From: a virus
Strand: one strand, 5' to 3'
Length of the DNA stretch: 25,127 nt
Virus record (IMG/VR): IMGVR_UViG_3300007539_000189
Span: 1 to 25,127 of that record
Below the pieces are notes generated by a model, which was not told where the DNA came from, made no database searches, and saw only the letters and a list, made by a program, of their open reading frames with translations. The translations under genes were made by a program, and so were the position numbers. This document shows positions 1,276 through 22,513 of the stretch, one piece after another. Position 1 is the stretch's first letter, and each line of letters starts with the position of its first letter.

Positions 1276-1375
1276 ATGCCCGACCGTTTTACTCAGGTAT
1301 ATGCCCGACTGTTTCACTCAGGTATATTCCCGACTGTTTCACTCAGGTATATGCCCGACTGTTTCACTCAGGTAT
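1276..1375. repeat. Iteron array A, four 25-bp units
   Basis: The unit ATGCCCGACTGTTTCACTCA plus GGTAT occurs four times in exact 25-bp register, with the cccgac core starting near 1279, 1304, 1329 and 1354. Units differ by only one to three bases. A degenerate fifth unit (TCCGATAGTTTAAC) blends into array B. Tandem identical units in a gene-free region are typical of replication iterons or operator clusters. Confidence 0.9.
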
Positions 1376-1386
1376 GTCGTCCGATA

Positions 1387-1469
1387 GTTTAACATTGAAC
1401 TACCTAGATGGTTTAACCTTAAACCATTTGGTTTAACCTTGAACTACCAGATGGTTTAACCTTGAACCA
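1387..1469. repeat. Iteron array B, four GTTTAACCTTGAAC units
   Basis: GTTTAAC(A/C)TT(G/A)AAC recurs at 1387, 1411, 1431 and 1454, with spacings of 24, 20 and 23 bp. The unit is unrelated to arrays A and C. The second copy forms the 16-bp perfect dyad GGTTTAACCTTAAACC at 1410-1425. Confidence 0.85.
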
Positions 1470-1473
1470 ATTC

Positions 1474-1548
1474 TGTGATCACAAGGTGTGACCACAAGGT
1501 GTGATCATGAGGTGTGATCACAAGGTGTGACCACAAGGTGTGATCACA
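1474..1548. repeat. Iteron array C, 13-bp TGTGATCACAAGG units
   Basis: There are 5.8 head-to-tail copies in exact 13-bp register, alternating TGTGATCACAAGG and TGTGACCACAAGG, with one TGTGATCATGAGG. The core TGTGATCACA is a perfect 10-bp palindrome. One isolated extra core lies at 1578-1587, on the far side of the G-run. A palindromic core repeated every 13 bp suggests cooperative loading of a dimeric protein. Confidence 0.9.
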
Positions 1549-1559
1549 TGATAGTCAGA

Positions 1560-1607
1560 GGGGGGGGGGGAGGCTTTTGTGATCACAGCAGGGGGGGACC
1601 CAGGGGG
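1560..1607 (+). other. G-rich block with 11-, 7- and 5-G runs
   Basis: Eleven consecutive G at 1560-1570, seven at 1591-1597 and five at 1603-1607. The spacers contain one TGTGATCACA core and GACCCA. The plus strand could fold a G-quadruplex. Long homopolymers also vary in length and are prone to sequencing error, so exact run lengths are uncertain. Confidence 0.7.
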
Positions 1608-1850
1608 ACCCGCGCGGATCCTCCCTATTTAATTGCTAAACGAAAATTTCTCACAAAAGTTTGGCGAAAGAGGCATGTTACAAAGTTCTCACGAAGTTGT
1701 GATCGAAGGGCGGCACTCCCTCTTGATTACATCTAAACTACAAAAAACAAACAAGAAAACACCACCAGGTCTCGACACACCACTGTCTCTTTCTTGCAAC
1801 ACTACACAAAAAGTTCAAAACAAGAGGTTATAAAAATCCCGTCTCAAGCG

Positions 1851-3548: not shown

Positions 3549-3977
3549 ATGAATAAAGCATACAAACTGGCCAGAAAGCAAATCGGCACAAGGGAAATTC
3601 CTGGCAGCAAGCACAATTCCAAGATTGTGGGGTGGTTTAAGGCTGTGGGCCACGCTTGGGTGAAGGACGATGAGACTGCTTGGTGTGCTGCTTTTGTAGG
3701 TGCTATGCTTAAAGAAGCCGGAATGCCTCACACTGGTAAGTTGAATGCCCGGTCCTATCTGGACTGGGGTGAGGGAGTCCCTCTCAGCGAAGCAAAGGAA
3801 GGCGACCTTGTTGTCTTCTATAGGGGCAAGAAGAACGGTTGGCAAGGTCACGTTGGATTCTTTGTCAGAGCCGAAGGCAACAGTATTGTAGTTCTTGGTG
3901 GTAATCAGGCTGACGCTGTAAACGAAAAGAAATATGCAGCTTCCCGCCTGCTAGGTGTTCGTCGAATGGAAGTCTAA
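3549..3977 (+). CDS. Endolysin, NlpC/P60-CHAP-type peptidase
   Basis: Predicted peptidoglycan hydrolase of 142 residues that lyses the host. It matches the compact TIGR02594-like fold: substrate motif ARKQIGTREIPGSKHNSKIV (8-27), catalytic Cys46 in AWCAAFV, catalytic His101 in GWQGHVGFFV, and a polar third residue, probably Asn119, in VLGGNQ. EGDLVVF (84-90) is the usual strand before the His motif. There is no signal peptide or membrane segment, so export would need a holin; none is visible nearby. After the TAA the same frame stays open for 27 codons and ends at 4061 overlapping the next start as ATGA, which suggests a longer ancestral C-terminus. Shine-Dalgarno is modest (GGGTGATAAG). Confidence 0.85.
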   Translation: MNKAYKLARKQIGTREIPGSKHNSKIVGWFKAVGHAWVKDDETAWCAAFVGAMLKEAGMPHTGKLNARSYLDWGEGVPLSEAKEGDLVVFYRGKKNGWQGHVGFFVRAEGNSIVVLGGNQADAVNEKKYAASRLLGVRRMEV

Positions 3978-6950: not shown

Positions 6951-8444
6951 ATGACACCAGCAGATATTAGGGAACAAGCGGAAGGCTCTCTTGAGGCTTT
7001 CATAACGCTTGTAGCACCTACGCAAGTTTTGGGTAGTTGCCACAAAGACGTGATTCGCTGGTGGAATCGACCTGATGCAAAACTACACCAACTATTACTG
7101 TTCCCACGGGACCATGGTAAGAGCCGACTTGTAGCCTACCGTGTGGCTTGGGAACTCACTCGTGACCCAACACTTAGGGTCTTGTACATTTCAGCGACTG
7201 CTAACCTTGCGGAGAAGCAGCTTACTTTTATCAAAGGCATTCTTACCTCCGAAATCTATCGGCGTTATTGGCCCGAGCATATAGAGAAGGAGGAGGGGAA
7301 GCGGATGAAGTGGACCACTACAGAAATTGCTCTGGACCACCCTCTCCGCAAAAAAGAGAACATCCGCGACCCCAGCATATTTACTGCCGGTTTGACGACC
7401 TCGATTACCGGAATGCACTGTGATATTGCTGTACTTGATGACTGCGTTGTGGCAGAGAATGCTTACAGCGAAGAAGGTCGTAATAAAGTACGGACCCAGT
7501 ATTCTTTGTTGTCGTCTATTGAGGGCGCTGGGGCTAAGGAGTGGGTCGTTGGAACCCGTTACCACCCAAAAGACCTCTACAACGACATGATGAACATGCG
7601 TGAGGACATCTATGATGAACTCGGCAACAAGATTGATGATCAGCCTATCTATGAGACTATGGAAAAGGCTGTAGAGAACCATGGAGATGGCACAGGGGAG
7701 TTCCTCTGGCCACGCCAACAGCGTAGAGATGGAAAGTGGTTCGGCTTCAACTCGAAAATCCTGGCCCAAAAGCGCGGTAAATACCTCGACAGGATGCAGT
7801 TTAGGGCGCAATACTACAATGACCCTCAAGACCCTGACAATGAAAAGATCAGCGCAGACCATTTTCAGTATTACGACAACAAATACCTAATACGTCAGAA
7901 CGGAAAGTGGACTTATCAGGGCCAAAGACTCAACCTTACGGCTGCTATTGACTTTGCCTTCTCAACACGAAAGGCAGCAGACTACACAGCGATTGTAGTT
8001 ATTGGGGTTGATCCAGAAAACAATGTGTTTGTCCTTGATATTGACAGGTTCAAGACCGAGAATATAGGCCAATACTTCAAACATATCTTGCAACTCCATA
8101 ATAAATGGGACTTCAGAAGGCTCGTAGCAGAAGTTTCTGTGGGCCAGAAGGCAATCGTCCAAAGTTTGAAGCAAAACTACTTCGCTCCACATGGTCTTAT
8201 GATCAAGGTAGATGAAATTCGCCCTACTCGAAACAAAGAAGAGCGTATTGAAGCGGTTTTAGGGCCAAGGTACGATAACATGCAGATCTACCACTACCAA
8301 GGTGGTAATACACAGGTGCTTGAGGAAGAGTTAGTACTCCAGAACCCTGCACATGACGACGTGATTGACGCTCTGGCAGTGCGGTGGAACATTCCATCAA
8401 GCCTGCTCGTCAAGTGCGCGATAGGACGCAACAAAGCAACGTGA
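6951..8444 (+). CDS. terL: Terminase large subunit (packaging ATPase/nuclease)
   Basis: The 497-residue DNA-packaging motor that docks on the portal and cuts concatemers. ATPase domain: Walker A variant FPRDHGKS (51-58, Lys57), coupling SAT at 81-83, and Walker B DIAVLDD (158-164). RNase H-like nuclease domain: Asp334 in AAIDFAFSTRKAADYTAI, Glu394 in RRLVAEVSVGQKAI, and the HDD triad at 468-470 in AHDDVIDALAV. Order and length fit podophage TerL. The annotated end looks unnatural: frame 0 stops at 8442-8444 after IGRNKAT. The +1 frame runs on as QRDLAPEIWWKGFLDEKNT and ends at 8496 inside the portal gene, a more natural C-terminus. A one-base indel or frameshift near 8425-8441 is likely. All catalytic residues lie upstream of it. 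Confidence 0.95.
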   Translation: MTPADIREQAEGSLEAFITLVAPTQVLGSCHKDVIRWWNRPDAKLHQLLLFPRDHGKSRLVAYRVAWELTRDPTLRVLYISATANLAEKQLTFIKGILTSEIYRRYWPEHIEKEEGKRMKWTTTEIALDHPLRKKENIRDPSIFTAGLTTSITGMHCDIAVLDDCVVAENAYSEEGRNKVRTQYSLLSSIEGAGAKEWVVGTRYHPKDLYNDMMNMREDIYDELGNKIDDQPIYETMEKAVENHGDGTGEFLWPRQQRRDGKWFGFNSKILAQKRGKYLDRMQFRAQYYNDPQDPDNEKISADHFQYYDNKYLIRQNGKWTYQGQRLNLTAAIDFAFSTRKAADYTAIVVIGVDPENNVFVLDIDRFKTENIGQYFKHILQLHNKWDFRRLVAEVSVGQKAIVQSLKQNYFAPHGLMIKVDEIRPTRNKEERIEAVLGPRYDNMQIYHYQGGNTQVLEEELVLQNPAHDDVIDALAVRWNIPSSLLVKCAIGRNKAT

Positions 8445-17110: not shown

Positions 17111-17563
17111 ATGGCAGTAACCAGACTAGCCACAGAAGAAGACATCTTTGACCTGCTTGTGTTAGGGAGGGCTTTGTCGAGAGAGGCAGGGCCGTTCTAC
17201 AAGTTTGACCCTGAGAAAACTCAAACAGTCTTGAAGGAGTCTCTGACAAACGATCAGCTACAGACGTTTGTTTTGGAGGACCAAGGTAACGTCGTTGGTG
17301 GCATCGTTTGCGTATTGACGACCTTACCTCTTGGTCTTGCGCCCTTGGCTACAGAACTTGGTATGTTCATTGAACGGGACTACAGGGACAAGCACGGGCC
17401 TTGGGGGATGATTAAACTGTTAAAAGAGTTCGAAGGTTGGGCGAGGAAGTCTGGGGCCAAGCACCTGGTTATATCCAACATACTGTCTATGTCCGACAGC
17501 AAGAAACTCTACGAAAGGCTAGGGTTTAACCCTATTGAGTTAAATTACACAAAGGAGTTGTGA
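17111..17563 (+). CDS. GNAT-fold acetyltransferase-like protein (gp13 position)
   Basis: A 150-residue GNAT-fold protein. Motif A is TELGMFIERDYRDKHGPWGM (81-100), with the R-D-K-H-G-P-W-G turn that binds acetyl-CoA pyrophosphate in the family (usual R/Q-x-x-G-x-G/A). The end motif LYERLGF (133-139) is also typical. Residues 1-60 carry the substrate helices. It sits between nozzle and internal proteins, as T7 gp13 does; phage tail GNAT proteins are common, but substrates are unknown. Whether it is a structural or enzymatic factor is open. AGGAGG, a perfect Shine-Dalgarno, lies upstream. Confidence 0.85.
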   Translation: MAVTRLATEEDIFDLLVLGRALSREAGPFYKFDPEKTQTVLKESLTNDQLQTFVLEDQGNVVGGIVCVLTTLPLGLAPLATELGMFIERDYRDKHGPWGMIKLLKEFEGWARKSGAKHLVISNILSMSDSKKLYERLGFNPIELNYTKEL

Positions 17564-21000: not shown

Positions 21001-22513
21001 CATACCCTTACTTCTAGGCGCTCACCCAATAAACGGGTCGAGGGCCATCATCCTGTCAACTGGCTTAACTGTTCTGTCGGCCCTCCCAGACGTTGCTATG
21101 AAAGAGCATGCAAAGCGGGGACTAAGTAAGGCTCTGGGCCTGTCCAAAGCAGAAATGGACATGCTAGAAGAGTTTGTCTACGACAGTGGAAGACTTATTA
21201 TCGACGGGGCCGCTGCTGAGAAGGACATTGGTGCATCCCTTGGCCTTGAGAGGTGGAGGGGACGAAAGGTAAGCACAAGTGCCTTTAGGGAAGCTGGTAG
21301 AAATGTTGCCAGAACCGCCAACAAAGCTGTGGACATGAGCCTGTTTGCCTTTAACCAAGGTGAACGTCTCACCCGTTTTAACTCCATGGCTTTGCAGTTC
21401 CTTAACATGAAGTCGGCTGGGCAACTCAATGGGCCTCGCCGTGAGGTGTTTGCGAACTGGTCTGCCGGTGAACATGCTCTGAACCTCAACATGACGGCAG
21501 AAGCTAAGAGCGCTCTACAAACAGGCATAACACGTCTTCCGCTACAGTTCTTCTCATACCCAATGAGAGCTATTGAGGCTATGGTTACTGGGGGTAGTGG
21601 ACAGTGGAGTAAACGCCAGAGGGCGCAGTTTGCCATTGGTGCATTTGCCATGGGTGGTCTGTCTTCTGTTAACGGAGATGAACTTTCCGACAACCTGTCT
21701 GTGTGGCTTGGCTACGATAAGGACTCGATGACAGATGTTCTGGTCCGTAATGGCTGGGTAGATGCTATTATCTCTGGCTTGGTTCGAGCAGCTACAGACA
21801 GCGATGAATACCGTTCTGCTTTGGGAACTCGTATCTCAGCGTTCAGTTTCGTCTTTGATGTCTATAACCTCATGTTTGGCAAAGAGGCGATGGCTAAAAG
21901 TCTCGGTGGTGCCAGTATTTCTGTGCTTGGTACTGCCCTTGTAAAGTCTATAGGGGCAGTAAAAGCGGCTGTACAAGGTGATTTCGATCTATCTCTACGA
22001 GAAGGTCGGGTGCTTCTTCGCCAAGTTGGTGGTATAAACAGTATTATGGCTGGCATAGAATCCATGAAACATAGGCAGTACCGGTCCAGAAGTGGTAATA
22101 TCTTGCCTGTACCACAAGACGAAGTTCAGTCTATTATGCGGGGTCTAGGTATTACTGATGGTATGATGGTCCAATACTATGCGGACAAGAACCGTTTTGT
22201 TAGCGATGACAAGGCGAGAACAAAAGTCCGAAAGGAAGCTAATAAGTATTGGCAGTCCATCAATGACGCCATCAAAGAGGGGGACGACGATAAAGTTCAA
22301 AGGATCATTGAGGAGCTTAGGAACTATGTCTACACCTCCCCATACTTGAGGGACTACGAAAAACGAGACATCCTTGAAAGAGGTCTTCAGGAAACCTCTG
22401 ACCACATTTTGCGTAGGGTCATTAGAGACTTTGAAAACTGGGAGCTTGATGACTTGAAACCAATTGAGCAACGCGCCCTAGAGAGGCACCAAAGACTTAG
22501 GGAAGGTAAGTAA
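18068..22513 (+). CDS. Giant internal virion protein (1481 aa), gp15/16-like
   Basis: A 1481-residue protein, the longest here, in the position of the large ejected core proteins. Segments: charged helical N-terminus (1-230); Ala/Val-rich linker (about 235-325); mixed domain with YVTSVVTHDEFNNYSLRIIV (about 393-412); helical region; beta-rich piece around WEVQWVDGRTFVVDATKIQD; a hydrophobic stretch KTIFAFQTVGTFIVQAAHIP and ILSTGLTVLSALPDVA (about 956-1010), likely to cross or touch membrane; then helical segments to a charged C-terminus (DYEKRDILERGLQETSDHIL). I see no Walker, lysozyme or polymerase motif. By analogy with T7 gp15/gp16 it would help build the ejection conduit through the envelope (inference). 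CAGGTGA precedes the ATG. Confidence 0.8.
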   Translation: MAQLLSTQVKSPTFMEKLSSALTEEDELTEEKLVDTAAASGAPFEGTAKEYVAQNQSSEPYDPNVQQEIVNNGYAQGLTAEEVYNKLAEEDQRRKIINEYDNKGYAISLLGQDPELSAVDLTFHLNRKTTESVLGDLSKKAEGGNVSKVGEFVDRYLVGMIARTAEDLTSEKADLGQLIRKNQVTMDPKEFKEWFTGLMEKEASEGLFSGEVNYWSLMEMIEATEFGGDPYSSSAFTMGLIDVATAGTTATVAKLGVKAVKGALKSSTAVKTTTKVSASQRAKKVVSANTPAQAAAAAKGANAGASTAVKIANSGVQGAVADEVMRKGTEAFNNNGSYWINEARAAMDYSHNPNRIIDRMSELRRAIPGVSEEELKLAIREEADRAKKAYNNGYVTSVVTHDEFNNYSLRIIVGDSKGNSFVDQVDAEDAAEKWSKKSGLQVDVVNGPNGKGHYLAINERLNMDQAASADAVEGVTSNLLARLAGSTRAQIGDLAKSRQQGGGVAARIREKALQPEIEVLQKVKNPVERAIIDDVLEMVRDSSVNGDFLKRDLTVDEFKAEYARVASALVANGQKGKFSRTATQDHINAYEAALEISRFDYIEKSTRLAHQMNEQGFRLVEFSVMPGEAPISRVATPHSGAIPDNARIIDQNGKDIPKSKLKKGAKIWEVQWVDGRTFVVDATKIQDVMPENALGYNSGGRRIYTEPYAITIGPDKDFAILTAKTRKRAAKAVEDLKRIAKGVAGRSWDDIVGDASLDKIIKENNSWNPSIKTASDLATYAKERSWPKMEEGNLDFLDMREPSRKRGLESFDNGSAFDFLKTNSRRDIPMDSVEGNGPKVVRPMQSIVAGAERTVRSIVNRQSNYEAKTALLKRVYPDLVRRNSSIDALWARKKAELAQHSDPKVRSLYNVIQRREGNVYGKEVSREIDEALQDFTNKFIMKDATPELEAIQQGMLAAAFKTIFAFQTVGTFIVQAAHIPLLLGAHPINGSRAIILSTGLTVLSALPDVAMKEHAKRGLSKALGLSKAEMDMLEEFVYDSGRLIIDGAAAEKDIGASLGLERWRGRKVSTSAFREAGRNVARTANKAVDMSLFAFNQGERLTRFNSMALQFLNMKSAGQLNGPRREVFANWSAGEHALNLNMTAEAKSALQTGITRLPLQFFSYPMRAIEAMVTGGSGQWSKRQRAQFAIGAFAMGGLSSVNGDELSDNLSVWLGYDKDSMTDVLVRNGWVDAIISGLVRAATDSDEYRSALGTRISAFSFVFDVYNLMFGKEAMAKSLGGASISVLGTALVKSIGAVKAAVQGDFDLSLREGRVLLRQVGGINSIMAGIESMKHRQYRSRSGNILPVPQDEVQSIMRGLGITDGMMVQYYADKNRFVSDDKARTKVRKEANKYWQSINDAIKEGDDDKVQRIIEELRNYVYTSPYLRDYEKRDILERGLQETSDHILRRVIRDFENWELDDLKPIEQRALERHQRLREGK

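Follow-up and report, generated by a model that had tools for sequence, protein, structure and literature searches.

What is the function of a short non-coding region in which three families of direct repeats are stacked beside a block of G-runs? This question is raised by the viral record IMGVR_UViG_3300007539_000189, a partial linear IMG/VR contig of 25,127 b that was analyzed over its whole length and is called the window here. The original prediction proposed that a replication initiator, a regulator and the terminase might each bind this region, making it a composite control centre between early and late genes. We found this interpretation, as a whole, to be partly supported. What our analysis adds to it is the placement of the region at a putative genome-end (concatemer) junction, a predicted direct terminal repeat (DTR) that holds one of the arrays, and the finding that sites of each of the three families recur in a related phage.

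Repeat arrays between early and late genes

All of the repeat elements that had been described were recovered at the same positions, on the + strand. Family 1 (1276-1375; TRF score 179) consists of 4.0 copies of a 25-bp unit, each with the site CCCGA-N9-TCAGG-TAT. Family 2 (1387-1467; TRF score 112-145) comprises four copies of GTTTAAC[C/A]TT[G/A]AAC, an imperfect inverted repeat, and its units start at 1387, 1411, 1431 and 1454, the last one running to 1467, so that they are irregularly spaced by 24, 20 and 23 bp. Family 3 (1474-1548; TRF score 122) is made up of 5.8 copies of the 13-bp unit TGTGA[T/C]CACAAGG, and an isolated family-3 core, TGTGATCACA, lies at 1578-1587. The G-run block (1560-1607) contains G11 at 1560-1570, G7 at 1591-1597 and G5 at 1603-1607. 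The repeats are direct and ordered, as in an iteron origin, and each unit is its own inverted repeat, imperfect or perfect; the families are unrelated to one another at the sequence level, as had been claimed.

Comparison with shuffled sequence confirmed that the arrays are real and not chance repeats: among 100 dinucleotide-shuffled versions of the window, the TRF score peaked at 60. The four perfect family-1 sites (expected, 0.04) are the only ones in the window, and over the same 25 kb both the perfect family-3 cores and the family-2 sites with at most two mismatches are confined to the region, with a single one-mismatch family-3 site at 22397. The G-runs show no excess by number (two runs of at least 7 in the window versus a shuffle mean of 2.16); what is notable about them is only their clustering and conserved position. 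A fourth repeat pair, absent from the original prediction, was seen at 1112-1150 on the + strand, where two copies of TTTTGACCTGGTC[G/A][G/A]TAC with the palindromic core GACC-T-GGTC stand 21 bp apart and adjoin an AT-rich stretch.

The region is a divergent early/late intergenic region, because a GP88 family gene on the - strand lies to its left and a late module on the + strand to its right. The GP88 family gene (2-778; PF17338, phrog_1617) is the first sizeable early-side gene and runs off the record, and a possible small early ORF of 67 aa from its ATG (810-1013, - strand) has no family assignment. The right part of the record is a podovirus late module with phrog_8035, the large terminase subunit (TerL), portal (phrog_332), major head protein (phrog_267) and tail protein (phrog_8094). 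The location between early and late genes that had been proposed for a composite region is thus supported. The first late-side gene, next to the intergenic region (1977-2537, + strand), was assigned to phrog_8035, a family annotated as 'unknown function', and gave no match in Pfam; its suggested identity as the small terminase subunit gained no support from these searches.

TerL (6951-8444, + strand) was assigned by family searches and by comparison with cobavirus TerL, and is 65-69% identical to that of ICBM1-3, P12053L, SIO1, CRP-4 and CRP-5. To judge from its proteins, the source phage is a cobavirus-like podovirus of the T7 supergroup, related to cobaviruses (Zobellviridae). Of the gene content that marks the Cobavirinae, which includes a class II ribonucleotide reductase besides replication genes, only structural genes were seen, the early arm lying outside the record. 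Among the late genes we also observed a peptidoglycan hydrolase of CHAP/NlpC-P60 type (3549-3977) and, an ORF (17111-17563) whose position corresponds to that of a GNAT acetyltransferase gene in P12053L and ICBM1, between the tail and internal virion genes.

A predicted genome-end junction

The DTRs of the cobaviruses ICBM1 and ICBM2 have been mapped from PacBio reads, and a conserved G+C-rich end has been noted (PMC6775973). DTRs are annotated in the ICBM1 (172 bp) and ICBM2 (159 bp) records exactly in the corresponding intergenic region, and the two ends of the ICBM3 record are identical over 172 bp; the length range for ICBM1-3 is 159-173 bp. In the orientation of the window, the DTR edge of both ICBM1 and ICBM2 lies 20 nt past the last G-run, and an ATTTTCT/ATTTACT motif follows the edge at a distance of 10 nt; this DTR-edge signal aligns across 16 junctions. 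We built a profile of the signal from 11 relatives, with the window, ICBM1-3, P12053L and SIO1 left out. In both ICBM1 and ICBM2 the annotated edge coincided with position 48 of this relatives-only model.

The same profile found a sole match in the window, at 1591-1661 on the + strand, with a modest score (12.7 bits, E 0.02 in a mixed set), and model position 48 corresponds to approximately 1634 by a mapping read from the alignment. Cutting by the terminase/maturation machinery would most likely occur near 1634, at the conserved DTR edge, because the G-run block and the AT-rich motif that follows it match the edge in cobaviruses; in this respect the link to the terminase in the original prediction gained support. 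Because the edge is near 1634 (plus or minus a few bases) and the known lengths are 159-173 bp, the DTR of the window is predicted to start at 1462-1476, which gives 1469-1634 (+ strand) as its likely extent. The record is a partial 25-kb linear fragment, hence two identical genome ends are not visible in it and the DTR is a prediction.

Taking these signals into account, the region is very probably a genome-end (concatemer) junction, at which the two ends of the genome are joined as the phage replicates. Array 3, which starts at 1474, is predicted to lie at the early-side end of the DTR, and we regard its location inside the DTR as likely. The isolated core and the G-runs would also fall within the DTR, the latter as the counterpart of the G+C-rich cobavirus end, and families 1 and 2 would flank it closely on its early side.

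Sites in related phages

The closest relative holding the junction is G008 (the contig of L003, with the junction in L178), whose TerL and capsid are 76% and 81% identical to those of the window. Its junction contains two family-1 sites (ACCAATTGTTTTAGTCAGGAAT and ACCAACTGTTCTACTCAGGTAT) and two sites each of families 2 and 3, those of family 3 as single cores, and in none of the three families did any of 200 shuffles equal the best site score. Over 68 bp, family 2 together with the TGTGATCACAAG that follows it aligns between the window and G008 with 73.5% identity (E 6e-6), and 23 bp of the DTR-edge motif are shared at 91%; in G008 the full DTR-edge model gave a partial match of 9.5 bits. The order of the sites is partly kept, with one family-1 site between family 3 and the G-block. 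The search of relatives that the original prediction had called for therefore found the repeats recurring at the same place, and because the same three kinds of site do so in the nearest relative, the region looks like a true control and packaging region. Two further features of G008 were observed: TTTTTGACCT of the fourth repeat pair also occurs just right of its DTR-edge motif, and its first early gene inside the junction (L182, 218-598) matches S-adenosylmethionine lyase (PF23780), which in T3 is an early anti-restriction gene.

Other, more distant relatives carry some of the sites. At the corresponding place L012 has an array of three 26-bp units with ACTCAGGTAT, and single family-1-like sites that scored above all shuffles (60 each) were found in L007, L008 and L015; the site in L020 is weaker, and L008 also has a family-2-like pair. 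The late sides of L007 and L008 differ by 2 mismatches in 5755 from approximately 50 bp left of the G-block onward. Their early sides share only 52 bp (92%) at the family-1-like sites and 25 bp (96%) at another element, and are otherwise unrelated. Function or recent exchange would best account for a site that is kept between arms of such different sequence. The break between the two contigs (L007 1133, L008 1242) falls just left of the G-block, as if arms had been exchanged at the genome end.

None of the family-1, -2 or -3 arrays was found in the cultured cobaviruses tested (ICBM1-3, CRP-4/5 and P12053L). The arrays are thus not required for the DTR mechanism, because these phages have a DTR without them. 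Most GP88 relatives (L040-L055) also have no sites of the three families. One of them, L040, has a different short array, in which CCACTCAGGGT is repeated, in the intergenic region (~1100-1270 in window orientation), and L043 (G011), from a phage that encodes an RNA polymerase of the T7 type (PF00940), also shows a double G-run upstream of its GP88 gene.

Wider searches gave no direct DNA similarity to the region among 50,697 phage records and only chance-level BLAST matches of the array to phage and plasmid records, and the exact family-3 array, family-1 unit and DTR-edge 21-mer were not found in other viral contigs. Long tandem arrays of 25/26-bp period with a related unit are present in L074 (6700-6910; ACTCAGGTATATACCCTACGCTTTT) and in L114 (1240-1715) and L089 (ACTCAGGTATTTACCTGACAGATTT); outside the search seed these agree with the window unit at 10 of 15 and 9 of 15 bases, respectively, by our own count. 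The L074 contig had no match to the TerL or capsid of the window, and L114 and L089 had a distant TerL match only. These units are suggestive, though no proof, of a binding protein common to the three contigs and the window.

Several other candidates were rejected. A scan of viral contigs for 'CTCAGGTAT' pairs returned mostly collagen-like coding repeats, a scan of bacterial genomes yielded mainly tandem repeats of other kinds and was set aside, and an array in L078/L083 agrees with the remainder of the unit at chance level only. A half parS site (TGTTTCAC) in family 1 is not kept in relatives, and for family 3 the half-site spacing is unsuited to CRP or DnaA boxes.

Possible function of the arrays

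We consider the best overall explanation, in which we have moderate confidence, to be a genome-end junction of a marine, cobavirus-like T7-supergroup phage with clustered sites for dimeric proteins. Each family would be a cluster of inverted-repeat sites for a dimeric DNA-binding protein. Family 3, within the DTR, would be present in both copies of the genome end, and families 1 and 2 would lie just inside the left (early) end, where their most likely use would be the control of DNA replication start and/or early transcription. For arrays 1 and 2 we favour such a left-end role in replication and/or early control, and for the G-block a function at the genome end; what array 3 does, given that it would be present at both ends, is the least certain part of this explanation.

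That the arrays serve mainly as a replication origin is somewhat less likely than not. SIO1 has no RNA polymerase (PMC6775973), and PF00940 was not matched by G006, G008 or G009, three contigs of near-genome length; a T7-like origin made by transcription with a phage polymerase would thus be unavailable to these phages. Among ten early G008 proteins tested we found a primase/helicase and ThyX and no recognisable initiator. GC skew, which had been put forward as an origin signature, shows no sign change at the region, and with only ~1 kb of early arm in the record to its left the skew cannot decide the matter. A wider proposal, which we offer as doubtful, is that T7-supergroup phages without RNA polymerase may have an iteron-type origin at and inside the terminal repeat, that one set of dimeric proteins may link replication start, early timing and end maturation, and that the family-1 iteron (CCYGA-N9-TCRGG-TAT, 25/26-bp period) may be common to several lineages.

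The position between divergent modules and the inverted-repeat units, which are typical of dimeric helix-turn-helix proteins, would also suit operator clusters, at which early repressors or activators would time the divergent early and late promoters, with no origin at this place. Cobaviruses do encode a small early helix-turn-helix protein (ICBM1 gp7, ICBM2 gp5). However, a scan of 1000-2000 found no sigma-70-like promoter, where the host promoter type may differ, the distance from the arrays to the early ORF starts exceeds 200 bp, and a copy of family 3 would stand at either genome end; we regard this alternative as rather unlikely. A role confined to the formation of concatemers, their cutting or packaging, comparable to that of the short T7 repeats and excluding initiation and transcription, is also unlikely: no array occurs in 1636-1976, to the late side of the predicted DTR, whereas the T7 repeats flank both sides, and the cultured cobaviruses retain a DTR without arrays, even though the predicted position of the arrays beside and inside the DTR and the match of the G-run block to the conserved DTR edge would fit such a role. 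Functionless neutral tandem expansion in non-coding DNA is disfavoured as very improbable, since G008 still has individual sites from each of the three families and family 1 is retained between the otherwise unrelated L007 and L008 early arms, although copy numbers of families 1/2/3 vary strongly (4/4/5.8 in the window versus 2/2/2 in G008) and the exact window units are absent from other viral contigs.

Comparison with known systems

With a genome-end junction bearing clustered dimeric sites as our preferred explanation, the region can be set against three known systems. The concatemer junction of T7 and T3 has arrays of short 7-bp repeats beside the terminal repeat, in T7 on both sides. The arrays of the window likewise adjoin a terminal repeat, predicted at ~160 bp, at the left (early) end, but their units of 25, 14 and 13 bp have inverted symmetry, and unlike in T7 one array is predicted inside the DTR and none is found on the late side. 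Iteron origins are known in plasmids and temperate phages, for example those of lambda O and RK2 TrfA. The window resembles them in its clustered direct repeats of ~13-25 bp in a regulatory region and differs in having three families in place of one, with no initiator gene identified beside the arrays in a record that leaves the early arm largely outside.

No replication origin is named for cobaviruses in the report that described their DTRs (PMC6775973). The third system is the cobavirus DTR of the Lentibacter phages ICBM1-3 (PMC6775973), which the window resembles in the intergenic position between early and late modules, in the G-runs followed by an ATTTTCT/ATTTACT-like motif and in the related TerL. 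Unlike the cultured cobaviruses, which are without the three array families, the window has one array predicted inside its DTR. A compact genome-end region with three conserved site families may provide defined sequences for replication start in T7-like phages without RNA polymerase, and the DTR-edge profile may help to locate genome ends in this group's metagenomic contigs, in which the ends are usually unknown.
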